From contig JAMOQI010000044.1 of the NCBI GenBank assembly GCA_027064095.1, positions 1 to 43,051 on the forward strand: a DNA stretch of 43,051 nucleotides. The letters run 5' to 3'. A program made the position numbers and the translations under genes. Within the stretch, counting starts at the first letter, position 1, and each line of letters starts with the position of its first letter. Below, in pieces: positions 29,671 to 43,051 of this stretch. The notes below the pieces were generated by a model that did no database searches, was not told the DNA's origin, and saw only the letters and a list, made by a program, of their open reading frames with translations. The stretch comes from Bacteroidales bacterium (GTDB taxonomy: Bacteria; Bacteroidota; Bacteroidia; Bacteroidales; UBA1556).

Positions 29671-30681
29671 ATGAAGAGAACAAAATTATATAAAACATAT
29701 AACATTATCATAAGAAGTGTAATTATTATTACATCATTTACATTTCTATACTTTCAATTATTTGTTAAACAGGACTTTAATAACCTTTTAAATGACATCA
29801 GTAATATTCTAAATACTAGTAATAATTGGTGGTTAATTATTTTAAGCCTTGCTTTAATGCCGATAAATTGGTCTTTAGAGGCGCTAAAATGGAAACTATT
29901 GCTAAAAAACAAAGAAGAAATATCGTTTGGACTTTCCTTAAAAGCAATTTTCAGTGGTGCAAGTATTAGTGCAGTAAGCCCAAACAGAACAGGTGATTAT
30001 TTCGGAAGAATATTTGTATTAAAAGGAACTAAATTTTGGGAAGGTGTGTTTATTACAATTATTGGTTCATATGCCCAAACAATTACAACACTGCTTTTTG
30101 GTGGAATGGCAGTATTTGCCTTTCTGACTCCAGCTCTTGTTTCTAACGAAAATCTGGATTCTAGTCGCTTACTTATTTTTCAATATACTTATGTTATTCT
30201 GCTCTCAATTTTTATATTACTCTATTTTAGAATATCACTAATCTCTAAAATGATACCTCCTAAATGGAAAAGAATTCATAAATATGTAAATATTTTTATC
30301 AATTATAAATTCAATCAGCTTTTTACGGCGCTTTCAATTAGTATTTTACGATATATAGTTTTTAGCTTTCAGTTTTATTTATTACTTATTGCGGTGGGAA
30401 TAAATTCCTTTAGCCCATTTGAGGCTTTGCTTTTCACTTCTTCTGTTTTCTTGATAAATACTATACGACCAAGTATAGCATTATTGGAAATTGGAATAAG
30501 AGGTTCCGTTGCTATATTTGTATTAAATTTATTCTTATCAGAAACTGAAATAAATCTATATCTCGAAAATGCTGTTCTTCTTGCCTCATCGTTGCTATGG
30601 TTAATTAATATTATCCTTCCGGCTATAATTGGACTGTTTTTTATAAAAGATTTGCGTTTTTTTAAATCTAATAATCAATAA
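29671..30681 (+). CDS. LPG-synthase-TM / flippase-like integral membrane protein
   Basis: 336 aa from the ATG at 29671, chosen over 29608 because the upstream part overlaps ruvC. About eight hydrophobic segments, with ALKWKLLLKNKEEISFGLSLKAIFSGASISAVSPNRTGDYFGRI matching the lysylphosphatidylglycerol-synthase transmembrane (UPF0104/DUF2029-like flippase) family, which in many species moves or makes polar lipids. It lacks the aminoacyl-transferase domain of true MprF. TAATG joins it directly (1-base overlap) to the GT2 gene, which suggests joint handling of a glycolipid (inference). Confidence 0.8.
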   Translation: MKRTKLYKTYNIIIRSVIIITSFTFLYFQLFVKQDFNNLLNDISNILNTSNNWWLIILSLALMPINWSLEALKWKLLLKNKEEISFGLSLKAIFSGASISAVSPNRTGDYFGRIFVLKGTKFWEGVFITIIGSYAQTITTLLFGGMAVFAFLTPALVSNENLDSSRLLIFQYTYVILLSIFILLYFRISLISKMIPPKWKRIHKYVNIFINYKFNQLFTALSISILRYIVFSFQFYLLLIAVGINSFSPFEALLFTSSVFLINTIRPSIALLEIGIRGSVAIFVLNLFLSETEINLYLENAVLLASSLLWLINIILPAIIGLFFIKDLRFFKSNNQ

Positions 30682-31793
30682 TGAGCCTTTTAATTTCAAT
30701 ATTAATTCTATTATCTATTGACCTGTATATTATACTTATAGTGGCAATAAGCATTGGGTGGTTCAAAATAAAAGAAACGTCAATCAATAATGATTTACAG
30801 GATATAAATACGTTTAGTATTATTATTCCTTTTAAAAATGAAGCAAGCAACTTAACTCCCTTGCTGAAGGACTTATCACAATTAAATTATTCCGTTTCAA
30901 ATTATGAGATCATTTTTGTAAATGACGATTCTGTTGATGATTCTGTTGAGCTTATCAGTAAATATATTTCTTCGAATAACCTATCTTGGCTTTTGTTATC
31001 ATCTAGTGGTGGTAAGAAAAAAGCAATAGAAAAAGCCATTAACAAAGCCCAAAATAAATATATTATTAGCATTGACGCAGATTGTAGAATTCCTGATGGT
31101 ATTCTTAAAGCATATAATACTACTTTAATAAAAAGAGAAACAAAAATGATATCCGGGCCAGTAGCGTTTTATAGTAATAACAGAATTTTCGGGCAATTAT
31201 TAGAGCTCGAATTTATTAGTTTAATAGGAAGTGGAGCAGGAAGTATTGGTATTGAAAAACCTATTATGATGAATGCTGCAAATATGTTATTCGAACGCAA
31301 ATTAGCAATTGAAGCTAGCAATAAGGTGTATAATGATAAAACAAAATCTGGTGATGATATCTTTTTAATGCATTTTTTAATTGAGAAATATGGAGCAAAC
31401 GAAATACAATTTCTAAAAAATAAGGATGCCATTATTAGTACAAAAGCACCAACAAATGTAACAGAACTTATAAAACAAAGAATAAGGTGGACAGCAAAAG
31501 CACGCCATTATAAAATCAATTTTACTAGCATTGCGGCACTTATTGTATTATTTCTAAACTTTATTTTTATGATATCTTTCTTTATGATGTTTTTACCGGA
31601 ATATAGCACATTATTTTTATTTATTTTCATTGTAAAAACCATAATAGACTTACCTTTATTATTCTCTACAGCTTCATTTCTAGGACAGAAAAACAGATTA
31701 ATATTATTACCATTATTACAATTTATTTACCCATTTTATATTGTTACAACTGCTTTTGCAGGGCTTTTATCTAAAGAAAGCTGGGAAAAATAG
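30681..31793 (+). CDS. Membrane-anchored GT2 glycosyltransferase
   Basis: 370 aa. An N-terminal transmembrane segment is followed by a GT-A domain: FSIIIPFKNEASNL, NDDSVDDS (substrate/metal region), SIDADCR (DxD-like), and a C-terminal KQRIRW (QxxRW-type) motif typical of processive-like GT2 enzymes. Three hydrophobic segments near the C-terminus (FTSIAALIVLFLNFIFMISFF etc.) hold it in the membrane. The acceptor is probably a lipid or glycolipid; sugar unknown. Coupled to the flippase-like gene by TAATG overlap. Confidence 0.88.
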   Translation: MSLLISILILLSIDLYIILIVAISIGWFKIKETSINNDLQDINTFSIIIPFKNEASNLTPLLKDLSQLNYSVSNYEIIFVNDDSVDDSVELISKYISSNNLSWLLLSSSGGKKKAIEKAINKAQNKYIISIDADCRIPDGILKAYNTTLIKRETKMISGPVAFYSNNRIFGQLLELEFISLIGSGAGSIGIEKPIMMNAANMLFERKLAIEASNKVYNDKTKSGDDIFLMHFLIEKYGANEIQFLKNKDAIISTKAPTNVTELIKQRIRWTAKARHYKINFTSIAALIVLFLNFIFMISFFMMFLPEYSTLFLFIFIVKTIIDLPLLFSTASFLGQKNRLILLPLLQFIYPFYIVTTAFAGLLSKESWEK

Positions 31794-31856
31794 AAACAGT
31801 AAAGTAAATGATAAATTTACGAATAAAGACATCTACTAATTATACTAGGTCGTGAT

Positions 31857-31888
31857 AGAAAATTGTATGAATAATGCGAATTAATATT
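31857..31888. repeat. Short palindromic repeat, copy 3 (half-site)
   Basis: AATTGTATGAATAATGCG (31861-31878) is identical to 12694-12711 and is followed by AATTAATATTA. The opposite arm seen in the other copies is not evident. It lies between the convergent GT2 and diacylglycerol kinase genes. Confidence 0.6.
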
Positions 31889-31931
31889 ACAAATTTGTCG
31901 GCTCAGTATAGTACAAAAGTATTTTTAAAAT

Positions 31932-32300
31932 CTAAAAATAAGGTATGAAAACATAAGCAGCTACAACTACAGAAGCTATAGCTAAAACTAAGACTGCTGC
32001 TGCTGACATATCCTTTATTCTGCCAATCTCAGTATTATAATTTTCATCAATAAGATTGCAAAGTTTTTCAATAGATGAATTAAATATCTCAGCAGAAATT
32101 ACTAAGGCAATCATTATCACTATTATAGCTCTTTCAATATTTGAGAGTGGATAATAATAGGCAGCAGATAATGTTACCAACATTGCCAATAAATGCACAT
32201 AAAAATTGCGTTGAGATTTCATCATCACGCTTAATCCGTTAGCTGCATTTACAAAACTCCATAAGAAGCCTTTGATACCTTTGTTACTTTTGTATTTCAA
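31932..32300 (-). CDS. dgkA: Diacylglycerol / undecaprenol kinase (DgkA type)
   Basis: 122 aa with three transmembrane helices and the DgkA signature ERAIIVIMIALVISAEIFNSSIEKLCNLIDEN, with Glu/Asn catalytic residues in the ExxNxxIE pattern, and IGRIKDMSAAAVLV in helix 3. It phosphorylates diacylglycerol or undecaprenol in the inner membrane. It starts 30 bp after the stop of the hypothetical exported protein, so it may be transcribed with it. Confidence 0.92.
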   Translation of the reverse strand: MKYKSNKGIKGFLWSFVNAANGLSVMMKSQRNFYVHLLAMLVTLSAAYYYPLSNIERAIIVIMIALVISAEIFNSSIEKLCNLIDENYNTEIGRIKDMSAAAVLVLAIASVVVAAYVFIPYF

Positions 32301-32329
32301 TTTTATATTTTTTATCTAATAAAAATATA

Positions 32330-32788
32330 TTACGGATAATATACTTTAGGAAGTTTCTTAATCTCTTTTATAACACGATATTTAGTCTTTCCTTTATAAA
32401 GATATTTTAGCAATCCTAATCCAGAGTATTCTATTGGAGGAGGTGTTGTAGTAAGTCCATCGGAAACTAAGTTCCCATTTTCATCAGGTCTTGAATGTAT
32501 ATATGCTTCTATATAAATAGTATCTCCTTTTTCAAAAGTGTTTTTTCGCATTCTTTCAGTATCCAAAGAATATGTTTTGAATTCCAACTTATTAATGCCA
32601 ATCCATAAATCTTCGAATTTCAATTTCTCTGATGAGACTTTGGATACCATTTTAAAACTATAGTGTATTGTACTACCACTTTTTGCTCTTCCCCCATACG
32701 ACTTCTGTTGAGTAGCTTCAAAATTACTGAACGGAACGCTTATAAACCATCCAAAAAGGAATAAAAATATAACGGCTGTAATTTTCAT
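32330..32788 (-). CDS. Hypothetical exported protein
   Basis: 152 aa. MKITAVIFLFLFGWFISVPFS is a signal peptide or anchor; no lipobox. The rest is beta-rich (GGRAKSGSTIHYSFKMVSKVSS, LWIGINKLEFKTYSL, GDTIYIEAYIHS) and ends with RVIKEIKKLPKVYYP. No known domain is recognised. It starts 25 bp after the MacB-like permease stop and 30 bp before dgkA, within a four-gene minus-strand group. Confidence 0.65.
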   Translation of the reverse strand: MKITAVIFLFLFGWFISVPFSNFEATQQKSYGGRAKSGSTIHYSFKMVSKVSSEKLKFEDLWIGINKLEFKTYSLDTERMRKNTFEKGDTIYIEAYIHSRPDENGNLVSDGLTTTPPPIEYSGLGLLKYLYKGKTKYRVIKEIKKLPKVYYP

Positions 32789-32812
32789 AAAAAATATTTT
32801 AAAAAATTTATA

Positions 32813-34054
32813 CTAATTTGAACGTATGGCTTCCACCGGACTCAATCTTGAAGCCAAATATGCAGGAATCATTCCTGCTACAAGACCTATCAAAAGTGAT
32901 ACCATTATACCTAGCACAATATTACCAAAAGACATTATGAGCTCAAAATGAAAACCATAAGTTGCAATTAATACTGCGGCATAAACGATCACCAAACCTA
33001 TTACCCCCCCAAATAGAGAAAGAAAAACAGATTCGAAAAGAAATTGAAGAAGAATAAAAAAGTTTTTAGCACCAATGGCTTTTTGTATTCCAATTTGATT
33101 GGTACGTTCGCGTACACTTACAAACATAATGTTTGCAATGCCAAAACCTCCTACCAGCAAACTAAGACCGCCAATAAACCAGCCTGCAATACCTATTGTT
33201 TTAAATATCCCATCAAAATTACTATTTAATTTAGAAATTTCATTAATAGAGAAATCTTCTTCTTCCGAAGGTTTAAGTCTATGAAATGCTCTTAAGGAAG
33301 ACCTAATCTCATCAGCAATCTGTTCATTTGATATTCCTTTTTTTGCAATAACCATAATAGTTGGATTTATTCTACTGGATCTAAGATTAATAATATTCCT
33401 TGCAAAATTTATAGGAACAAGTATTCTAGCATCATGAGATTGGCCAAATAGATCTTCTCCTTGACGTTTAAAAACACCTATAACTGCCACTTTCCTCCCA
33501 AAAATCTTAAATTTCTTTCCTATAGGATCTAAATTTTTAAACAGACCTTCGGCTATGTCAATTCCGATAATGGCTACCGGCTTTCCAGATGCACTTTCTA
33601 ATGCAGAGAAATATCTTCCTTCTTGCATATCAAAATCAAATATATCTTTATATTCCTGTGACGCAGCAATAGTTACGGCATTATCAATTTTTTTATTTCC
33701 ATATTGTACAGTTTTGGGGGTGCTGACCATAAAACCAACGCTATTGGCGTATTTCATTTTTTTTCTAAGATAATCAGCATCTTTGATATTAGGTTCTGGT
33801 CGTTGGTAATATTTCCACCATGGGTAATCTCCAAAAATCCAAGGCCATTTCTGAACGTACATAATATTGTTCCCCAAACTATTAATAGAAGAACGAATCT
33901 TGAATTCTAGAGAATCTATTAATGTAAATACAGAAATAACTGAAAATATACCAATCGTAATTCCTAATAACGACAGAGTTGTTTGCAATTTATTTGATAA
34001 TAAACTATTAATAGCAAATAAATAACTTTCCCTAATTAACTTTAATAATATCAT
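32813..34054 (-). CDS. MacB/FtsX-like ABC transporter permease
   Basis: 413 aa. One N-terminal transmembrane helix (LQTTLSLLGITIGIFSVISVFTLI), a MacB-type periplasmic core domain (about 45-270, with GRYFSALESASGKPVAIIG and RVAVIGVF-like strand), then three C-terminal helices with the FtsX core (GGFGIANIMFVSVRERTNQIGIQKAIGAK). Such permeases use an ABC ATPase to drive lipoprotein or peptide export by mechanotransmission; no ATPase gene is in the window. The ATG overlaps the EEP gene stop by one base, so the two are coupled. Confidence 0.9.
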   Translation of the reverse strand: MILLKLIRESYLFAINSLLSNKLQTTLSLLGITIGIFSVISVFTLIDSLEFKIRSSINSLGNNIMYVQKWPWIFGDYPWWKYYQRPEPNIKDADYLRKKMKYANSVGFMVSTPKTVQYGNKKIDNAVTIAASQEYKDIFDFDMQEGRYFSALESASGKPVAIIGIDIAEGLFKNLDPIGKKFKIFGRKVAVIGVFKRQGEDLFGQSHDARILVPINFARNIINLRSSRINPTIMVIAKKGISNEQIADEIRSSLRAFHRLKPSEEEDFSINEISKLNSNFDGIFKTIGIAGWFIGGLSLLVGGFGIANIMFVSVRERTNQIGIQKAIGAKNFFILLQFLFESVFLSLFGGVIGLVIVYAAVLIATYGFHFELIMSFGNIVLGIMVSLLIGLVAGMIPAYLASRLSPVEAIRSN

Positions 34055-35118
34055 TAATTTTCTGGCTTTAGTTGTACTTTTGCCAATAAAGGTTGATGGT
34101 CAGAATATTTAAAACCATTAGAAATATTGTGTATTTCAAGTCCTTTTACATTTGGTGAAAGTAGAAAAAAATCTATTACTGTCGTAAGTGTTTCTCCAAC
34201 GGTATAAGATGTTGAGTCTCTTCTGTTTGTTGGCTGCTTATTATCGTAGAACCACGTCCAGCCTTTAGGCATTAAATCAGATGAAATATCCAATCTGCTA
34301 TTATTATCCATTATATCTTTATCAAAATCCGGTTTAAAATCAGGAGCACATTGATTCCAGTCACCACCAACTATTATATAATTGCCTTTATCATACTCTT
34401 TTGTTACAAATTTTTTAATCTGTTTCATTTGAGCAATACGAAGTCCGCCATCATCGTAGGCAGAGTTGTGAGTATTAATAATTAAAAGATATTTACCATT
34501 ATTCAAATTGTAACGATTAACGAGAAAACATCTATCTAACATAAATAATGATTTTGGCCAAGCGAAATTTCCAATATAAGAATGACGAACTGATTGTTGT
34601 GGGACATACTTTCCCAATGTCAGTAAGCCACTATTAACAGCACCCATGGGTTTAAAAATGGGAATAGGAACATAAGGAACAAGGTAATTAGTGCCGAAAT
34701 CAGCATGATAATCTTTAAACATATTACATAATGTATCGGCTTGGTTGGTAAAATATGAACGTGTTGAAGATTTATCCACCTCTTGAAATAGCATAAAATC
34801 CACCTTTGGCATTTTCTTAATTTCATCCTTCACGCCTTGAATATTTTTAAAAACAACTTTTGACTCAGGATAAACTTTTGTGCCTCCACTATAGAAAAAA
34901 TCCATTTCTTTATTTAGCCCGCAATAACCTAAATTCCATGAGAGAAATGATAATTCCATACTATCGCTAAGAGTGCTTGTAGTTTGATTGTCATTTTTAA
35001 AAACAAGGGTTTCAGAATCTGGACTATAGTCATTTATACTAATATAACCAACAAAAAACACAAACGCTAGAATTAATACTATAATTAACCACAAAAGGGA
35101 TTTCAAAAGTTTTTTCAT
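34054..35118 (-). CDS. Endonuclease/exonuclease/phosphatase (EEP) family exported protein
   Basis: 354 aa. The N-terminal helix (LLKSLLWLIIVLILAFVFFVGYI) is a signal anchor. The EEP fold is clear: LSFLSWNLGY, FMLFQEVDKS (metal Glu), IINTHNSAYDD, VGGDWNQ (Asp/Asn pair), VIDFFLLS and SDHQPL (catalytic Asp-His). It cleaves a phosphodiester or phosphomonoester in the envelope; substrate unknown (nuclease, sphingomyelinase-like or phosphatase are all possible). It is first in the minus-strand group with the permease, driven by the promoter at 35147-35177. Confidence 0.88.
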   Translation of the reverse strand: MKKLLKSLLWLIIVLILAFVFFVGYISINDYSPDSETLVFKNDNQTTSTLSDSMELSFLSWNLGYCGLNKEMDFFYSGGTKVYPESKVVFKNIQGVKDEIKKMPKVDFMLFQEVDKSSTRSYFTNQADTLCNMFKDYHADFGTNYLVPYVPIPIFKPMGAVNSGLLTLGKYVPQQSVRHSYIGNFAWPKSLFMLDRCFLVNRYNLNNGKYLLIINTHNSAYDDGGLRIAQMKQIKKFVTKEYDKGNYIIVGGDWNQCAPDFKPDFDKDIMDNNSRLDISSDLMPKGWTWFYDNKQPTNRRDSTSYTVGETLTTVIDFFLLSPNVKGLEIHNISNGFKYSDHQPLLAKVQLKPEN

Positions 35119-35146
35119 AATGGAAATATTTATATTAATAATGCTA

Positions 35147-35177
35147 CAAAGTTATAAATCAATTTGTAGTTGTCAAT
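35147..35177 (-). promoter_or_regulatory. Promoter of the EEP gene, overlapping the divergent Omp85 promoter
   Basis: On the minus strand ATTG (complement of 35174-35177) is 19 nt from TAACTTTG (complement of 35147-35154), a perfect-spacing Bacteroidota promoter 29 bp upstream of the start at 35118. Confidence 0.75.
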
Positions 35178-35193
35178 AAAATAATTAGTTTTG
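35163..35193 (+). promoter_or_regulatory. Promoter of the Omp85-like gene
   Basis: TTTG (35163-35166), 19 nt, TAGTTTTG (35186-35193): a consensus promoter 26 bp before the ATG at 35220. Its -33 region shares DNA with the divergent EEP promoter. Confidence 0.78.
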
Positions 35194-35219
35194 TATGATA
35201 TTTATTTAAAATCCAGGTT

Positions 35220-36581
35220 ATGAAAAGAAGTTTACTCACATTTGCTTTGCTTATTTTATTAAGCATAATTAGTATTAATACATTTGCTCAAGCTGATACA
35301 ACAAAAACTACAAAAAGGGATAAAGATTTAAAAAAAGGCTTTAGTTTTGGAGGAGTTCCTGCTCTTGCTTATGATTCTGACTTAGGATTTCTTTATGGAA
35401 TAATATTTAATTTATATCACTATGGTGATGGTTCAAATTATCCAAATTATAATCATTCATTATATATGGAGTGGAGTCGTACAACAAAGGGAAGTGGTAA
35501 GAATATTTTGGAATATGACAACAGGACATTAATTCCTAATGGTAGAATGAAGATAGAGCTAAGTTATCTTACAGAGCAGGCTTTAGACTTTTATGGTTTT
35601 AATGGGTATCATTCTTATTATAATGCTCAATATCTTGACAAAACAAGCCCGGATTATATTTCTCGGTTGTATTATCGTCATGATAGAAAGTTGTTGCGAT
35701 TTAAAACTGACTTTCAAGGAAAATTAGTAGGTAAAAATTTAAGATGGTTTGCAGGCTTTTCTTATTATAATATCAAAATAGGTTCTGTGAATATAGATAA
35801 ACTTAATGATGGAAGAGATGCCGAAGAAATGTTACCAGATACTGCTTCTCTTTACGATAAATATGTAGAATGGGGAGTTTTAAAGTCTAGCCAAGTAAAT
35901 GGAGGGAATACAAATCTATTAAAGTTCGGTGCTGTTTATGATACCAGAGATAATGAAGCTAGTCCAAATAGAGGTATTTGGTCAGAGGTCATGTTAATAA
36001 CAGCTCCCGGTTTTATAGGAAACAAATATAGTTATACTAAGATTTCTTTAACTCATCGTCAATATTTTACACTTTATCCTAAGAAAGTAGTTTTTGCATA
36101 TCGTTTAAACTATCAGGGATTAATAGGTGGTGAGATACCATTTTATATGATGCCTTTTTATTTCCGTTCTAAAGATGTTAAGGATGGTTTAGGTGGTTCT
36201 AAAACCCTAAGAGGTATTTTACGAAATAGGGTTGTCGGCGATGGTGCTATTTTGGGTAATATGGAGTTGAGATATAAGTTCCTTAATACAAGAGTATTTA
36301 ATCAAAATTTCTCAATTACTTTAAGTGCTTTTATGGACGCAGCCAGAATAATTCAATTCCATGAAGTGGACACTACTGGTGTAACGGCATCTTATGGTAA
36401 AACAAGAGAAGAAAACATTAAAGAATTAAACTATCAAGATGAATCTTTCCATGTTAGCTATGGAGGTGGCCTTCATTTTGCTATAAATCATAATTTTATT
36501 ATTGCAGTAGATTATGGATTAGCAGGTAACCCGCTGGATGGTAGTAGGGGTCTTTATATTGGTTTGAATTATATTTTCTAA
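35220..36581 (+). CDS. Omp85/BamA-like outer-membrane beta-barrel protein
   Basis: 453 aa with signal peptide (MKRSLLTFALLILLSIISINTFAQ). It is a pure 16-strand-type barrel: alternating aromatic strands, GGSKTLRGILRNR (the VRGF/Y-like L6 motif of Omp85) and a terminal strand ending in YIGLNYIF. No POTRA domains are present. Bacteroidota have several such short Omp85-like proteins (DUF5982/surface antigen family) with unclear roles, for example in outer-membrane lipid or protein assembly. It stands alone between two divergent/convergent units with promoter at 35163-35193 and terminator at 36614-36645. Confidence 0.88.
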   Translation: MKRSLLTFALLILLSIISINTFAQADTTKTTKRDKDLKKGFSFGGVPALAYDSDLGFLYGIIFNLYHYGDGSNYPNYNHSLYMEWSRTTKGSGKNILEYDNRTLIPNGRMKIELSYLTEQALDFYGFNGYHSYYNAQYLDKTSPDYISRLYYRHDRKLLRFKTDFQGKLVGKNLRWFAGFSYYNIKIGSVNIDKLNDGRDAEEMLPDTASLYDKYVEWGVLKSSQVNGGNTNLLKFGAVYDTRDNEASPNRGIWSEVMLITAPGFIGNKYSYTKISLTHRQYFTLYPKKVVFAYRLNYQGLIGGEIPFYMMPFYFRSKDVKDGLGGSKTLRGILRNRVVGDGAILGNMELRYKFLNTRVFNQNFSITLSAFMDAARIIQFHEVDTTGVTASYGKTREENIKELNYQDESFHVSYGGGLHFAINHNFIIAVDYGLAGNPLDGSRGLYIGLNYIF

Positions 36582-36613
36582 AATATTACCTTACTTAACA
36601 ATTGATGTAATAA

Positions 36614-36645
36614 AAAACCGCTTTGAAATTCTTCAAAGCGGTTTT
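36614..36645. terminator. Bidirectional rho-independent terminator
   Basis: AAAACCGCTTTGAA (36614-36627) pairs perfectly with TTCAAAGCGGTTTT (36632-36645) around ATTC. T-runs occur on both strands, so it ends the Omp85-like transcript and any minus-strand transcript passing the argF/arcB end. Confidence 0.92.
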
Positions 36646-36878
36646 TGATGTATTATAAACCCGTATTATTTGTCATTATAAATTAGCACCTCGCTTATTT
36701 GACTGTATCTCAATAAATTAATAAGTGCATATTAAATTCTTATAATACTATAATCTAGGTACTACTTGATTTTATCTTTGTACATCTGCTGTGTTGCAAA
36801 ACCTTTGAAATATAAGGATATGTTTATCGGTTTTGACTCTTAGCATTTACACAAAACTAAAACCATAAATAATCCGGA
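36646..36878. other. Intergenic stretch with a lone promoter-like site
   Basis: No gene is credible in this part of the 297-bp gap between the Omp85-like gene and argF/arcB. TATCTTTG at 36773-36780 (plus strand) is a perfect -7 element but leads only to a 7-codon reading frame (ATG at 36820) and to the antisense of argF/arcB. Confidence 0.45.
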
Positions 36879-37880
36879 TTAAGCACCTAAAGTTGCTACC
36901 ATAACAGCTTTAATAGTATGTAATCTATTTTCTGCTTCGTCGAAAACAATACTAGCTTCTGATTCAAAAACTTCTTCGGTAACTTCCATAGCATCAATTC
37001 CAAACTTTTGATAAATTTCTTCACCAACTTTGGTATCACGGTTATGGAATGCTGGTAGGCAATGCATAAATTTAGCATTTGGATTATTAGTAGCATCCAT
37101 AGCGGCTTTATTAACTTGGTAAGGCTTTAATAATTCTATACGCTCTTTCCAAACTTCATCAGGTTCGCCCATACTTACCCAAACGTCAGTATAAAGGAAA
37201 TCACAACCTTTAACACCTTCCGCTACATTATCAGTAATAGTAATTATAGCACCTGTTTCTTTAGCAATCTCTCTGGCTTGAGCAACTAATTCGTCAGAAG
37301 GTTGAACTTCTTTAGGAGCCACAGCACGGAAATCCATACCCATTTTAGCAGCTCCTATCATCAATGAATTACCCATATTATTACGAGCATCACCCAAATA
37401 AGCAAAGCTAACTTTATGTAAAGGTTTATCACTATGTTCCATCATAGTAAGGAAATCCGCTAATATTTGAGTAGGGTGAAATTCATTTGTTAAACCATTC
37501 CATACAGGTACACCAGCATAAGCTCCTAATTCTTCAACTATTTCCTGACCAAAGCCTCGATATTCAATGCCATCATACATTCTTCCAAGAACACGTGCAG
37601 TATCTTTCATAGTTTCTTTTGTTCCAATCTGAGAACCAGAAGGTCCTAAGTAAGTAACATTACCACCTTGGTCGTGTACGGCAGTTTCAAAAGCACAGCG
37701 TGTTCTAGTAGATGATTTCTCAAAAATGAGTGCAATATTCTTGCCTTTAAGCATTTGTTGCTCCGTTCCTGCATATTTAGCTTTTTTAAGATTCATTGCT
37801 AAATCCAGCATAAATTTTATTTCTTTAGGAGTGAAGTCTAATAGCTTCAAAAAATTCCTGTTTTTAATGTTGTAAGCCAT
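36879..37880 (-). CDS. Ornithine carbamoyltransferase, catabolic type
   Basis: 333 aa from the ATG at 37880; the longer frame from 37910 adds unlikely residues ([10 protein letters not shown]). The carbamoyl-phosphate site SSTRTR (56-61), HPTQ (135-138), ornithine loop [16 protein letters not shown] and HCLPA are present; thus it is the true ornithine enzyme, not the N-succinyl-ornithine type common in Bacteroides. It converts citrulline + phosphate to ornithine + carbamoyl-phosphate or the reverse. It lies 48 bp after arcC; TACTTTTG at 37915-37908 could be a second promoter. Confidence 0.93.
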
Positions 37881-37907
37881 GTCTATTAAGGGTTTTAATG
37901 TTCTACA

Positions 37908-37915
37908 CAAAAGTA
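37908..37915 (-). promoter_or_regulatory. Candidate internal -7 element before the carbamoyltransferase gene
   Basis: The complement of CAAAAGTA is TACTTTTG, 28 bp upstream of the ATG at 37880, between arcC and this gene. The -33 region is not convincing. Confidence 0.35.
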
Positions 37916-37928
37916 GATATATTTATGT

Positions 37929-38870
37929 TTATTTTAATGAAATTCTTGTTCCTGCATTTTCTTTTTTTAGTAATCTGGCATCAGTAATAACAGTTTCTTT
38001 GCCTCCATTCTCCACAAACTCAATTCCTGCTCTTACTTTCGGTGCCATGCTTCCTTCTGTAAACTGTTTATCTTCAAGATGTTTTTTCATTTCTTCAACA
38101 TTTACAAAATGTAATTTCTCCTGTTTTGATGTATTAAAATTAATATACACATAAGGAATATCCGTAAGAATAAAGAAAGCATCAGCCTTGATTGAAGTTG
38201 CTAATTTTGATGAAGCTAAATCTTTATCAATAACAGCGTCAATACCTTCCAATTTACCGTTCTTTTTATGGAATGCCGGAATTCCACCACCACCAACAGT
38301 GATAACTATATTGCCTTCACGAGCTAATTTCTCAACAATTTCCCAGTTGCTGATTTCTTTAGGTTTTGGTGATGCCACAACTCTACGGAAACCTCTTCCC
38401 CGTGGGTCTTCTTGAAACTCCCAACCTTGATCTTCCATGTGGTCTATTTCTTCTTGTGTATAATATGGGCCAACTGGTTTTGTAGGATTCTTAAATGCCG
38501 GATCATTCTCGTCAACAATAACTTGTGTAATAATAGTAATAATATTCTTTTTAATTCCTCTCTCAAAAAGTACATTTCTCATTTGTTGCTCTATCATATA
38601 ACCTATAGAACCTTGAGTTTCAGCTACGCAAATGTCCATAGGTTGTTTTGGTATATCAAATACTTTAAAACCAGCTTCATGTTGTAACATTACATTGCCT
38701 ACTTGAGGGCCATTACCGTGACCTATTACTAAATTATAACCTTGGTCTAATAAATCTGCAACATCCTCACACGCCTCAAATATATTTGCTTCTTGCTCTG
38801 AGATAGTTCCTTTCTGACCACTTTTTAAGAGGGCATTTCCTCCAAGAGCTACTACTGCTAACCTGTTCAT
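37929..38870 (-). CDS. arcC: Carbamate kinase
   Basis: 313 aa with the amino-acid-kinase pattern: VVALGGNALL (6-15), IGHGNGPQVGN, AETQGSIGYMIEQ, GGGGIPAF, DKDLASSKLATSIKADAFFILTDIPYVY. It makes ATP and carbamate from carbamoyl phosphate and ADP. It is the upstream gene of the arcC-OTC pair, but no arginine deiminase (arcA) is visible in the window. The pair would allow ATP from citrulline, which may come from a deiminase elsewhere or from outside (inference). Confidence 0.95.
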   Translation of the reverse strand: MNRLAVVALGGNALLKSGQKGTISEQEANIFEACEDVADLLDQGYNLVIGHGNGPQVGNVMLQHEAGFKVFDIPKQPMDICVAETQGSIGYMIEQQMRNVLFERGIKKNIITIITQVIVDENDPAFKNPTKPVGPYYTQEEIDHMEDQGWEFQEDPRGRGFRRVVASPKPKEISNWEIVEKLAREGNIVITVGGGGIPAFHKKNGKLEGIDAVIDKDLASSKLATSIKADAFFILTDIPYVYINFNTSKQEKLHFVNVEEMKKHLEDKQFTEGSMAPKVRAGIEFVENGGKETVITDARLLKKENAGTRISLK

Positions 38871-39246
38871 ATTAAATACTTTAAATTATTAATAATTCGA
38901 TTATATAAGGCGGATAAAAGAAAAATATTATTATTAAATAGTTTAATGAAATGTTGAAATACAATTATTATTAAATAATATTTAAACCCTTTAGCCTAAT
39001 CATTTATTATGTCAAATTTAAATGATAAATAAATAATGAGCCAAATTCATCGAAAAGGGGGGCAAAGCTAATAATATTTATTTATAAAAATGATTTATCA
39101 TTACCATAGATTTTCTACTTTTGTAGACGACAAAAATCATTATTGGAATACTATTATATATTATTGTTAATTATCTATTATATGATTTTGTACGTTAACC
39201 ATGTTCTGTCTGCGACAAACAGACGAGGAGATTTTAAATCTTACTT
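38871..39246. other. 376-bp intergenic stretch, divergent promoters region
   Basis: No gene is seen between arcC (minus) and the flippase gene (plus). Visible items are the -7 element at 39116-39123 and a small inverted repeat GTCTG-CGACAAA-CAGAC (39208-39224) in the leader of the flippase gene. The rest is AT-rich without recognisable content; no arcC promoter consensus was found. Confidence 0.5.
39116..39123 (+). promoter_or_regulatory. -7 element of the flippase gene (long leader)
   Basis: TACTTTTG matches TAnnTTTG; a TTTA at 39094-39097 lies 18 nt before it. The start codon is at 39247, giving a ~120-nt leader containing the hairpin at 39208-39224. Confidence 0.5.
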
Positions 39247-40725
39247 ATGAGAAGAAAGTTTCTTACAAACCTAATACTCTTAGTTTTCCTTAACTTCTTA
39301 ATAAAACCTTTTTGGGTTTTTGGTATTGATATGGGAGTGCAGAATAGTGTAGGTCCTTCTGAATATGGGTTTTACTTTACTATTTTAAATTTTGCTTTTA
39401 TTTTTCAAATATTATTGGATATGGGTATCACCAATTTCAATAATAGGAATATTGCTCAAAACAATCACTTATTAAGTAAGCATTTTAGTAGTATCATTAT
39501 ACTTAGATTTGTTTTTTCAATAATATATTTGTCTGTAATACTTGGTTTAGGCAAATTAATGAACTACGATTCAAGGCAGATGTATTTTTTGATGATTATT
39601 GGTTTTAATCAGTTTTTATTAAGTCTGATTTTATATCTTAGGTCAAATATCTCAGCTTTATTACTTTTTAAGGTTGATAGTTTCATTTCTGTTTTAGATC
39701 GCTTATTGATGATTATTATTTGTGCTATCCTGCTTTGGGGAGGTGTTACAAATACCAATTTTCAAATTAGCTGGTTTATTTACGCACAAACATTTTCTTA
39801 TCTGCTCACAGCATTAATAGCTTTTCTTGTGTTGCTTAAACGAATGGAATTTAAAGGTTTAAATTGGAATACTACTTTCTTTATTTTTATTATTAAAAAG
39901 AGTTTTCCATATGCCACTCTTATATTACTGATGGGCTTATATGGAAGAATTGACACCGTCCTTATAGAGAGATTGCTGCCTAATGGAGATCTACAATCCG
40001 GAATTTATGCTTCTGCTTTTCGTCTTTTGGATGTAGCAAATAATATGTCAGGGGTGTTATTTGCAGCACTATTGCTGCCTTTATTTGCTAAAATGATTAG
40101 TAAAAAAGAAGATTTAAACCGACTTGTGAAATTAGGATTTACTCTTTTATTTATTTTATCTACAGCAGTGGCAATAGCATCATTTTTCTATGGTGAAGCT
40201 ATAATGAATTTCCTGTATCATAGGCATATATCCGAAACAGAAGTGGAATATGCTATTAGGATGCAAGAAACAGCAACAATTTTCAGATTATTGATGTTTG
40301 TGTATGTTTTTACTTCATCGACTTATATTTTTGGTACTCTGCTAACTGCTAATGGAAGCATGAAAACTCTTAATATTATTGCTCTAATTGGTGTTATTAT
40401 TAGTCTAATTGTTAATTTTAGTTTAATTCCACGAATTGAAGCAATAGGCTCAGCATGGGCTAATCTTAGTGCACAGAGCATTACGGCTTTACTTCAGTTG
40501 GGCTATGCTTTTTATTTGCTTCCTATTTCTTTTGATAAAAAATATATTACTAAATTAATTCTCTATGTAGCAATAACATTTACTTTATCGTGGATTTCAA
40601 GTATTCTTCCATTTCAATGGCAAATTAATTTAGGACTATTAATAATAATGACTACTATTGTTGCCTTTTTACTTAAATTATTAGATTTGAAATCATTTTT
40701 CTTAATCATTAAAAACGAAGAGTAA
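39247..40725 (+). CDS. Polysaccharide/oligosaccharide flippase (Wzx-like, MOP superfamily)
   Basis: 492 aa with about 12-14 transmembrane helices. The N-terminus (KPFWVFGIDMGVQNSVGPSEYGFYF) and GRIDTVLIERLLPNGDLQSGIYASAFRLLDVANN in the middle are typical of Wzx-type lipid-linked sugar flippases. It moves undecaprenyl-linked glycan units to the periplasmic side (family knowledge). Only 10 bp separate it from the next gene, so both are one operon. No glycosyltransferase cluster is adjacent. Confidence 0.88.
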   Translation: MRRKFLTNLILLVFLNFLIKPFWVFGIDMGVQNSVGPSEYGFYFTILNFAFIFQILLDMGITNFNNRNIAQNNHLLSKHFSSIIILRFVFSIIYLSVILGLGKLMNYDSRQMYFLMIIGFNQFLLSLILYLRSNISALLLFKVDSFISVLDRLLMIIICAILLWGGVTNTNFQISWFIYAQTFSYLLTALIAFLVLLKRMEFKGLNWNTTFFIFIIKKSFPYATLILLMGLYGRIDTVLIERLLPNGDLQSGIYASAFRLLDVANNMSGVLFAALLLPLFAKMISKKEDLNRLVKLGFTLLFILSTAVAIASFFYGEAIMNFLYHRHISETEVEYAIRMQETATIFRLLMFVYVFTSSTYIFGTLLTANGSMKTLNIIALIGVIISLIVNFSLIPRIEAIGSAWANLSAQSITALLQLGYAFYLLPISFDKKYITKLILYVAITFTLSWISSILPFQWQINLGLLIIMTTIVAFLLKLLDLKSFFLIIKNEE

Positions 40726-40735
40726 ATAATCCTAA

Positions 40736-42475
40736 ATGACAAATTCTAGCACAAAGTTAAACGATCTGTGGTTAAAATCGGCAGCACTAGGTAGCTTATG
40801 GGCATCTAATGAAATTATTTTAGGAAGCTTTCTTCATAATATCCGCTTACCTTTGAGTGGTACTATTATGTCTTTTTTTAGTGTAGTATTTATAATTGCA
40901 TTTATTAGCAGGTGGCCGACAAAAGGACTTATAGTTCGGGCAGGACTTATTGCGGCACTTATGAAATCAATGGCTCCCAGTGCCATTATTTTGGGACCAA
41001 TGATTGGAATAATTGTAGAAGCACTAATACTGGAAGCATTTTTTAGACTATCAAAAGGAAAAACGTATTTAATGTTTATTGGTGGAAGTTTAGCTGTTTC
41101 TGAAGTCCTTTTTCAAAAAGTCGGAACATTAATTGTTTCCTTTGGCTGGGATATTGTAAAAATATTAGAGTCATTATATAACTTTGTAGATAAGCAACTT
41201 GTAGGAGTTGCAATAAATGGAAATACTGCGTTGATTTTGCTATTAGCAATATATTTTTTAATCGGTATCTTGGCGACATATATTGGTAAAAAAGCCGGGA
41301 AATTAAGTTGCAAATTAGAGCGTGATATTGCAGCAGTTCCTATCTTTATTCAAAAAAAGAATAAAGCCATATTTAATCAGGAACAAGATAATGTTTATTC
41401 TTGGTGGTTGCTATTAGCACATATTTTAGTATTTATTCTTGGGCTATATTTAATTAACTCTCTCAAATGGTATTTCGCTTTACTTTATGTAAGTATTTAT
41501 TTCATTATTATATCATTATGGTATAAAAAGGCTTTCTCTCATTTAAAAAGATTTAGTTTTTGGGTTGTTTTTATTATTATAACTTTATTAGCAGGTTTGT
41601 TGTTTAACCATCAAAGCACAGGAGAATATTTTAGTCTCGAAGGTTTGCTGATAGGTATAAAAATGAATATAAGAGCAGCTTTGGTTGTGGTTTCTTTTGC
41701 AGCTATCGGTAAGGAGTTAAAAAGTCCGGTTATTAAGGCTATACTCTACCAAAGAGGAATGCAAAATTTTTATAGAGCTTTAAGTCTTGCTTTCGGCATT
41801 CTCCCTGAAAGTTTAAAAGCTTTTCCATCAGCAAAAGAGATGCTTAGTTCTCCTGTTAATCTTATTGCTAAATTGCTTCTCTATGCTGAGAACTTAATAG
41901 CGGAGCTGGAAAGACGCGATAAAGCTCTTGTTCCTGTTATTATTATCAGTGGTAATATTCAAGAAGGAAAAACAACTTTTGTACAGAAGGTTGTTAATAG
42001 GCTCGATAGAAAGAATATTGCTTTAAATGGGTTTTTAAGTAAAGTAATATACTCTGGTAATAATAGAATTGGTTATAGATTAAAACCTATAAATTCCACT
42101 TATGAAGAAGTATTGTGTAAAATGGAAGAAGAAAAGGGCTGGATTCGTCAAGGAAAGTTTTACTTTAATCCTGAGGTAATAAATAGGGGAAATGATATTC
42201 TTAATGCTATCGATAGCACCACTCAACTTACAATAATTGATGAAATTGGTCCTTTAGAGTCTAAATCTAAAGGTTGGGCGCCGGCTATTCAACGTATTAG
42301 TGAAGAAGCTATTAGTCCTATGTTATGGGTAGTAAGAGAATCATTAGTAAAAAAAATAAGTAGAAAATGGCCTGTTGGTAATATTTATTTCTTTCGTCTT
42401 TCTGATGATTTACCTGCCTTAGATGTAGAAAATATGGTTATCCATATTATTGAAGATTGGAAAAAAAATAAATAA
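40736..42475 (+). CDS. Multi-spanning membrane protein fused to a THEP1-type NTPase
   Basis: 579 aa. Residues ~10-190 contain about six hydrophobic segments (SAALGSLWASNEIILGSFLHNIRLPLSGTI, GLIVRAGLIAALMKSMAPSAIILGPMIGIIVEALILE), reminiscent of an ECF-transporter S-component. Residues ~220-385 contain more helices and a stretch with ELKSPVIKAILYQRGMQNFYRALSLAFGI, reminiscent of the EcfT coupling region. Residues ~400-579 are an NTPase_1 (THEP1) domain: Walker A GNIQEGKTT (406-414) and IDEIGPLESKSKGW (D502, E503), the characteristic THEP1 Walker B. The NTPase resembles nucleoside-triphosphate hydrolases of archaea and bacteria. The fusion of a transporter-like membrane part with this domain is unusual; substrate unknown. 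It follows the flippase by 10 bp. Confidence 0.75.
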   Translation: MTNSSTKLNDLWLKSAALGSLWASNEIILGSFLHNIRLPLSGTIMSFFSVVFIIAFISRWPTKGLIVRAGLIAALMKSMAPSAIILGPMIGIIVEALILEAFFRLSKGKTYLMFIGGSLAVSEVLFQKVGTLIVSFGWDIVKILESLYNFVDKQLVGVAINGNTALILLLAIYFLIGILATYIGKKAGKLSCKLERDIAAVPIFIQKKNKAIFNQEQDNVYSWWLLLAHILVFILGLYLINSLKWYFALLYVSIYFIIISLWYKKAFSHLKRFSFWVVFIIITLLAGLLFNHQSTGEYFSLEGLLIGIKMNIRAALVVVSFAAIGKELKSPVIKAILYQRGMQNFYRALSLAFGILPESLKAFPSAKEMLSSPVNLIAKLLLYAENLIAELERRDKALVPVIIISGNIQEGKTTFVQKVVNRLDRKNIALNGFLSKVIYSGNNRIGYRLKPINSTYEEVLCKMEEEKGWIRQGKFYFNPEVINRGNDILNAIDSTTQLTIIDEIGPLESKSKGWAPAIQRISEEAISPMLWVVRESLVKKISRKWPVGNIYFFRLSDDLPALDVENMVIHIIEDWKKNK

Positions 42476-42476
42476 T

Positions 42477-42498
42477 ATTATTATTGTTCGATAATAAT
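42477..42498 (+). terminator. Weak AT-only hairpin after the membrane-NTPase gene
   Basis: ATTATTAT (42477-42484) pairs with ATAATAAT (42491-42498) around TGTTCG, then TTT. It has no GC pairs, so it is at best a weak terminator. Confidence 0.35.
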
Positions 42499-42528
42499 TT
42501 AAAATGAATTTCTATATTTTATAATCAA

Positions 42529-42723
42529 TTAAATATAAATACGATACGTATTTTTAAAACTTTGCTTTTCGAAAGCAAACCTTCTAACAAATAAGGAAGC
42601 TTGCATCAACTCATCATAGGTCTTCTGCTGTGTGAACTTTTTAAAAGCTTTATAGTCGTTATAGCCCTTTTCAAATCCATAAATGGTCATGGGATTTACA
42701 TAATAATCCAGGCATTGCACCAT
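42529..42723 (-). CDS. Small hypothetical protein, possibly a truncated gene
   Basis: 64 aa, basic and aromatic (MVQCLDYYVNPMTIYGFEKGYNDYKAFKKF...FKNTYRIYI). No family is recognised. It has no signal peptide or membrane segment. Its short length, YGFEKGYNDYKAFKKF helix-like content and isolation make it either a real small protein or a remnant of a longer gene. No promoter consensus was identified. Confidence 0.35.
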   Translation of the reverse strand: MVQCLDYYVNPMTIYGFEKGYNDYKAFKKFTQQKTYDELMQASLFVRRFAFEKQSFKNTYRIYI

Positions 42724-42905
42724 TTACTTCTCGCAAAGATGTGCATTTGATAAAAGAACTAAATAACATATTTATCAAATGGTTTTTAGGTTTAAACTTC
42801 TTTACATAACGGTCTGAATGGTGTTTTTTTGTGCTTGTGGTGATAATAATTTGGGCTACTCCTTGAATTTTTTTGCCATAAAAGTGTTGAAAACGAAAAA
42901 AATAC

Positions 42906-42913
42906 TACTTTTA
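42906..42913 (+). promoter_or_regulatory. Candidate -7 element for the right-edge gene
   Basis: TACTTTTA, one mismatch to TAnnTTTG, lies 71 bp upstream of the ATG at 42984. The -33 region is unclear. Confidence 0.3.
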
Positions 42914-42983
42914 CAAAATAATCTTATATAAAGAGATATATATCAGTATATATATTGGGCAGGTTTTATTTATATTGTTGATC

Positions 42984-43051
42984 ATGACAAGAAAAATATT
43001 TATAATATTATTTATAATAGCGCCTCTGTTCATAAAAGCACAATATCCGGC
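42984..43051 (+). CDS. Start of an exported protein, cut by the window edge
   Basis: ATG at 42984 opens MTRKIFIILFIIAPLFIKAQ, a clear signal peptide with an AQ cleavage end as in other exported proteins of this window, then YPA before the edge. Function cannot be read. Confidence 0.65.
   Translation, partial: MTRKIFIILFIIAPLFIKAQYP

Follow-up and report, generated by a model that had tools for sequence, protein, structure and literature searches.

A THEP1-type NTPase joined to an ECF S-component-like membrane protein in Bacteroidota: a candidate importer of preformed molybdenum or tungsten cofactor

The window, by which we mean the whole stretch of DNA analysed here (43,051 nucleotides), is an entire contig (43 kb) from a metagenome-assembled genome (MAG) of a Bacteroidales bacterium; the assembly measures 2.13 Mb and is 85.6% complete. 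On its forward strand, positions 40736 to 42475 form an intact 579-codon ORF, running from ATG to stop, whose 579-aa product is encoded in one copy in this genome. Homologues in many genomes, with ~30 to 69% identity over most of the length and an identical domain order, exclude a chance ORF. The protein combines an S-component-like half with seven helices (positions 40754 to 41326, forward strand; residues 7 to 197), a second membrane half with a weak likeness to EcfT (41399 to 41926, forward strand; residues 222 to 397), and an NTPase_1/THEP1 domain (41939 to 42367, forward strand; residues 402 to 544). Searches of Pfam with the whole chain recovered a single domain above the cut-off, namely NTPase_1 (PF03266; residues 402 to 544, E = 1.7e-23), and residues 1 to 397, which are mostly helical membrane segments, had no significant match in Pfam or NCBIfam. 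A flippase-like gene (Polysacc_synt; 39247 to 40725, forward strand) ends 10 bp before the start of the membrane gene.

The THEP1 domain scored 83.7 bits against the Pfam gathering cut-off of 23.9 and missed that of the NCBIfam equivalog PRK13695 (73.4 bits versus 156). In a Foldseek search with the whole chain, the THEP1 part alone was confidently matched, to 1ye8 (TMt 0.76) and 2i3b; MFS-type membrane matches from the same search were discarded because of their bad alignment (rmsd of ~22). The Walker A motif GNIQEGKT (41951 to 41974, forward strand; residues 406 to 413) keeps its pattern in 60 of 61 fused homologues, and the end of the Walker B motif, DEIGP, with its catalytic-type glutamate (42239 to 42253, forward strand; residues 502 to 506), is found in all 61. 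THEP1 proteins belong to the ASCE P-loop class, which has a catalytic glutamate (PMC1079890). Judged from its sequence, the domain, which is the sole NTPase within the chain and is not an ABC-type ATPase, is an intact THEP1 NTPase, with hydrolysis predicted.

We modeled the first membrane half with AlphaFold2 both alone (85 sequences; pLDDT 91.3, pTM 0.87) and as part of the full chain (26 sequences; pLDDT 84.9, pTM 0.74). A Foldseek search of the PDB with the half alone gave as its top match the ECF S-component 5edl (probability 1.00, TM 0.56/0.54), aligned with an rmsd of 5.3 over 189 columns and a poor E-value of 0.18. The second ECF match was the folate ECF chain 9kym_D (TM 0.48/0.51), and the remaining matches, of 50 listed in all, had a TM of 0.31 or less. 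Despite the E-value, the probability, the full-length coverage, and the second ECF match concur, so that the predicted structure supports an ECF S-component fold for this half. Among the positions invariant across 85 homologues are W12, E26, S31, H34, N35, R68, P81, S82, P88, and M89, and K77 is nearly invariant. Profile-profile comparison was negative for homology to CbiM, scoring no better than unrelated membrane controls, and searches of PDB sequences with a profile of each membrane half retrieved no useful match.

The second half consists of four hydrophobic helices followed by two amphipathic helices (residues 343 to 362 and 373 to 397), which run into the THEP1 domain and occupy the position of the coupling helices of EcfT; R313 is invariant across 83 homologues. 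The Pfam CbiQ model was reached by 7 of these 83 members (best E = 0.0048), and profile-profile comparison by hhalign with six local CbiQ proteins was no better than with controls. The case for an EcfT-like second half is accordingly a weak one. These results leave the architecture drawn in an earlier note on this DNA largely right. The S-component-like first part agrees with the AlphaFold2 model and its matches to 5edl and 9kym_D; the complete THEP1 domain, as opposed to an ABC ATPase, is borne out by PF03266, by 1ye8 and 2i3b, and by its two motifs, for which the note had given Walker A at residues 406 to 414 and IDEIGPLE. The EcfT-like second part drew hits from CbiQ in some members and none from the profile-profile comparison. 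The neighboring glycan flippase, which the note had offered as a clue, did not hold up: its conservation is confined to the six nearest loci (the window and five close relatives), for which reason we reject a flippase partnership as a general clue and regard this neighbor as probably lineage specific, incidental, and outside the system. Adjacent carbamoyltransferase-like and carbamate kinase-like genes (window positions 36879 to 38870) are likewise kept beside the flippase and the membrane gene in close relatives.

A peptide-pattern scan for the membrane part covered 84,980 species genomes and yielded 505 confirmed stretches encoding relatives, the best 80 of which belong, without exception, to records of Bacteroidota or Chlorobiota. 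We examined 97 loci in this family (L numbers below; G numbers denote genomes). The same fusion as in the window (at least 540 aa) recurs in 61 of them, and the other 36 encode a split form, a membrane protein of ~400 aa without THEP1, so that the neighborhood survey proposed earlier both recovered the fusion and found THEP1 as a separate unit. Splitting detaches THEP1 alone, with the two membrane halves staying joined. The separate THEP1 gene may lie directly downstream (L056, L077, L101, L111, and L113), elsewhere in the same region (e.g., L059, L076, and L092), or on a different contig (G017, L044; G024, L046). Mapped onto a membrane-part tree, the fused/split label costs 4 changes, at least 3 of them forced by well-supported branches, compared with an average of 29 in shuffles, which indicates that fusion or splitting occurred only a few times. 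A homologue of 702 aa (L024, 6456 to 8561), whose THEP1 part ends after the DE motif and continues into a Crp/Fnr-type regulator-like sequence, is either a genuine fusion or an assembly error. We found no name for the membrane part, a point on which the novelty of the arrangement had been made to depend; by sequence comparison it is an unnamed, widespread Bacteroidota family.

The commonest neighbor of the family is MobA (called by its NTP_transf_3 domain, with MobA as the top NCBIfam models), whose gene immediately precedes that of the membrane protein, in the same orientation, in 24 of the 36 split loci. Molybdopterin oxidoreductases and their DmsB/DmsC-type partners occur near the membrane gene in L037, L038, L039, and L042, and in L046 the separate THEP1 gene adjoins molybdopterin-binding (MoCoBD) subunits. 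In G030 a single run of genes encodes a TonB receptor, a DUF364/DUF4213 protein, the fused protein, MoeA, and a MogA-like protein. DUF364 is encoded directly upstream in 7 fused loci; the structural paper on this domain put forward a derivative of a flavin or a pterin and remarked on neighbors related to Mo/W transport (PMC2954201). In three loci, a joined ORF encoding both QueA and MobA precedes the membrane gene (L058, 5858 to 7732; L112, 6040 to 8001; L117, 6169 to 8001).

Several loci further carry a Moco riboswitch (RF01055; matches of 41.9 to 70 bits, gathering cut-off of 36). It precedes the membrane gene on the same strand in L056 (70 bits, gap of ~55 nt), L058 (69.7 bits, ~134 nt), and L111 (55.8 bits, with the 3' end of the match covering the start codon). 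In L113 a match of 44.4 bits heads a run of genes for a TonB receptor, the membrane protein, and THEP1; in this locus, as in L111, the 3' end of the match reaches or overlaps the start codon of the next gene. In the congeners G001, G002, G007, and G009 of the window's organism, the riboswitch precedes a TonB receptor gene whose product is 44 to 50% identical to that of L113. No riboswitch was detected for the window's own gene (positions 30000 to 43051 scanned) or, by Rfam scan, at further fused and split loci, which limits direct riboswitch control to a minority of the family; nor was a close homologue of the riboswitch-linked receptor found in the window's genome. None of the aligned aptamers from these Bacteroidota has a P3 stem. 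Regulski et al. tie the P3-less form to the tungsten cofactor (PMC2408646), so the ligand may be Tuco; the abstract of that paper names no Bacteroidetes. Taken together, the genomic context points to the molybdenum/tungsten cofactor (Moco/Tuco). Both this context and the separate THEP1 gene in about one-third of the relatives examined had escaped the earlier note.

Elsewhere in Bacteroidota, RF01055 stands ahead of genes for TauE/SafE-type permeases (L131, 718 to 1539; L132, 688 to 1413; L133 and L134, both 702 to 1430; L138, 715 to 1596; L139, 682 to 1407; L146, 1702 to 2463), often with MoeA or MoaA next, which makes the permease a candidate Mo/W-linked TSUP transporter. In L131, from a genome without MoaC (G089), the TauE gene is followed by one for a 196-aa P-loop-like protein with no Pfam match (137 to 724). 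A second type of TonB receptor (~850 aa) is encoded divergently to riboswitch-led MoeA-MoaA genes in L136 and L137. A relative of it, with 54 to 58% identity, is encoded a few genes ahead of the membrane gene in each of L102, L112, L117, and L122.

The window's genome encodes a TAT-type PsrA homologue (best PDB match, thiosulfate/polysulfide reductase 2vpw, E = 2e-190) with PsrB-like and NrfD-like partners and sulfur genes, as well as a MobA homologue. We detected no MoaC, MoeA, MoaE, ModB, or CbiQ in this 85.6% complete assembly. MoaC, MoeA, and MoaE were likewise not found in the congeners G001, G005, and G010, which are 95 to 97% complete and keep the membrane protein, so that assembly gaps are an unlikely cause of the absences; within the genus, MoeA was found only in G008.

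We compared 60 relatives for the membrane protein, MoaC, MoeA, ModB, and the molybdopterin-dinucleotide binding domain (PF01568); most of these genomes are MAGs, several of them incomplete, and absences are to be read as soft. A contig-end fragment of the membrane part in G050 was scored as positive, and G055 (THEP1 only) and G058 (degenerate matches) were scored as negative. Among the 42 relatives without MoaC, a PF01568 enzyme is present in 17 of 18 genomes carrying the membrane protein versus 6 of 24 noncarriers (Fisher p = 6e-6, a value made too optimistic by shared ancestry within the genus and by incomplete genomes); with the window's congeners removed, the counts are 9 of 10 versus 5 of 23 (p = 4e-4). 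MoeA was not found in 16 of these 18 carriers, and a MobA homologue is present in 15 of the 16 tested. The exception is G022, which has the membrane protein and in which the molybdopterin enzyme was not found. The membrane protein also coexists with MoaC in 7 of the 60 relatives, and of the 16 relatives with both MoaC and a PF01568 enzyme, 7 carry it. In a wider set of 50 other carriers, MoaC was matched in 31, with 30 matches above the family cut-off and one below. Either a strict dependence on MoaC or its exclusion is rejected by this distribution, since the family occurs with and without it; in MoaC-bearing carriers salvage would be optional, and the family would not be confined to salvage-dependent genomes. 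MoaE, present in only 4 of the 18 MoaC-bearing relatives, was uninformative as a marker of molybdopterin synthesis; on the Pfam definition of MoaE, a different molybdopterin synthase may be at work in many of the Bacteroidota that have Moco genes.

On the basis of these observations, we favor, with some confidence, the reading that the protein sits in the inner membrane and imports preformed molybdenum or tungsten cofactor, or metal-free molybdopterin, for salvage. In such a system, a TonB-dependent receptor under the Moco riboswitch would carry the cofactor over the outer membrane, and the S-like half would bind it in the inner membrane, with the conserved His, Asn, Arg, Lys, and Ser residues as candidate contacts for phosphate and pterin. 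The second half would couple to THEP1, whose nucleotide cycle might drive or gate release into the cytosol, where MobA would add GMP and thereby allow PsrA and other TAT-exported enzymes to be loaded. With cofactor plentiful, the riboswitch would lower expression of the uptake genes. The simplest form of this reading would be an ECF-like importer in which THEP1 has replaced both ABC ATPases, and THEP1 may power or gate transport or receive the cofactor. The cargo, metal-bearing cofactor or bare molybdopterin, probably differs by lineage, as MoeA was not found in the window's genus (except G008) and G030 has MoeA and a MogA-like protein encoded behind the transporter. Against an importer count G022, the riboswitch-less window gene behind a flippase, the weak EcfT homology, and the fact that free Moco is oxygen labile.

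The strongest rival is oxyanion transport, that is, that the protein imports molybdate, tungstate, or a metal chelate and not a cofactor, which we consider unlikely. The riboswitch paper (PMC2408646) and the report on DUF364 (PMC2954201) place Moco riboswitches and DUF364 homologues near Mo/W transporters elsewhere, which, with the DUF364 genes directly upstream of 7 fused genes and a TonB receptor that could transport a metal chelate, would suit such a role. However, metal alone is insufficient for the cofactor in the 17 relatives that have a molybdopterin enzyme and in which MoaC was not found. Strong ModB-like permeases track MoaC across the 60 relatives (15 of 18 with MoaC versus 0 of 18 carriers without it) and not the membrane protein family, simple oxyanions need no TonB receptors, and metal import gives no reason for genomes without MoaC or MoeA to retain this protein together with molybdopterin enzymes and MobA. 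It is improbable, too, that the protein is a nontransporting membrane station that handles cofactor from another source, with a MobB-like THEP1 passing it to MobA or to apo-enzymes: MobA as the commonest neighbor, THEP1 beside the MoCoBD subunits in L046, and the fact that MobB is also a P-loop protein speak for this, but an S-component-fold half would have no obvious purpose in a cytosolic hand-over, and the Moco riboswitch ahead of what appears to be an operon with a TonB receptor gene favors uptake. Import of a queuosine precursor or another 7-deazapurine or pterin, for which one could cite the known ECF S-components for queuosine precursors and the true QueA that recurs beside separate THEP1 genes and MobA, is very improbable, as these QueA neighbors are limited to part of the family and the Moco riboswitches, MobA, and co-occurrence with molybdopterin enzymes would be left unexplained.

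We know of no transport role for the THEP1 enzymes described to date, and our literature search, which covered subscription papers thinly, found no report of Moco or molybdopterin import by bacteria. We give about an even chance to the stronger proposal that this is the first system moving preformed Mo/W cofactor or molybdopterin, with a riboswitch-controlled TonB receptor and an ECF-like protein powered by THEP1 in place of an ABC ATPase. A survey of molybdenum use counted several hundred organisms that have Moco enzymes and an incomplete Moco pathway and, for the most part, lack any known Mo transporter; it could offer only unrecognized synthesis genes or Mo-free enzymes as explanations (PMC6147048). 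Import of the finished cofactor would be a third, testable answer for these orphan molybdoenzymes. If the importer reading is correct, it would provide an ECF-like transporter without ABC ATPases, give THEP1 NTPases a cellular role in at least one lineage, and offer an explanation for organisms with orphan molybdoenzymes and without cofactor synthesis.

Like ECF transporters, the protein has an S-component fold (5edl, TM 0.56), a second multihelix membrane half followed by an NTPase, and, by our reading, a cofactor-type substrate. Unlike them, it fuses in a single chain what are separate subunits there (S-component, EcfT, and EcfA/A'), has THEP1, a RecA-like variant of the ASCE P-loop fold, where they have ABC ATPases, and is at most weakly EcfT-like; a search of the window's genome found no protein of the CbiQ family. 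With THEP1/NTPase_1 proteins (PF03266; aaTHEP1, 1ye8; human HCR-NTPase, 2i3b) it shares a score above the Pfam cut-off, the fold, and the Walker A and DE motifs; aaTHEP1, however, a single-domain soluble enzyme, had no known function according to PMC1079890, whereas in the present family THEP1 is either part of the membrane protein chain or encoded next to it. The ModABC, WtpABC, and TupABC systems would resemble it in Mo- or W-related uptake but are ABC importers of oxyanions, for which we found no sequence relation to the membrane protein. Finally, the Moco riboswitch regulon involves the same RNA family, RF01055, and differs in its targets: PMC2408646 describes genes of Moco synthesis and molybdate transport as well as Mo enzymes, and here they are TonB receptors and a new membrane family.
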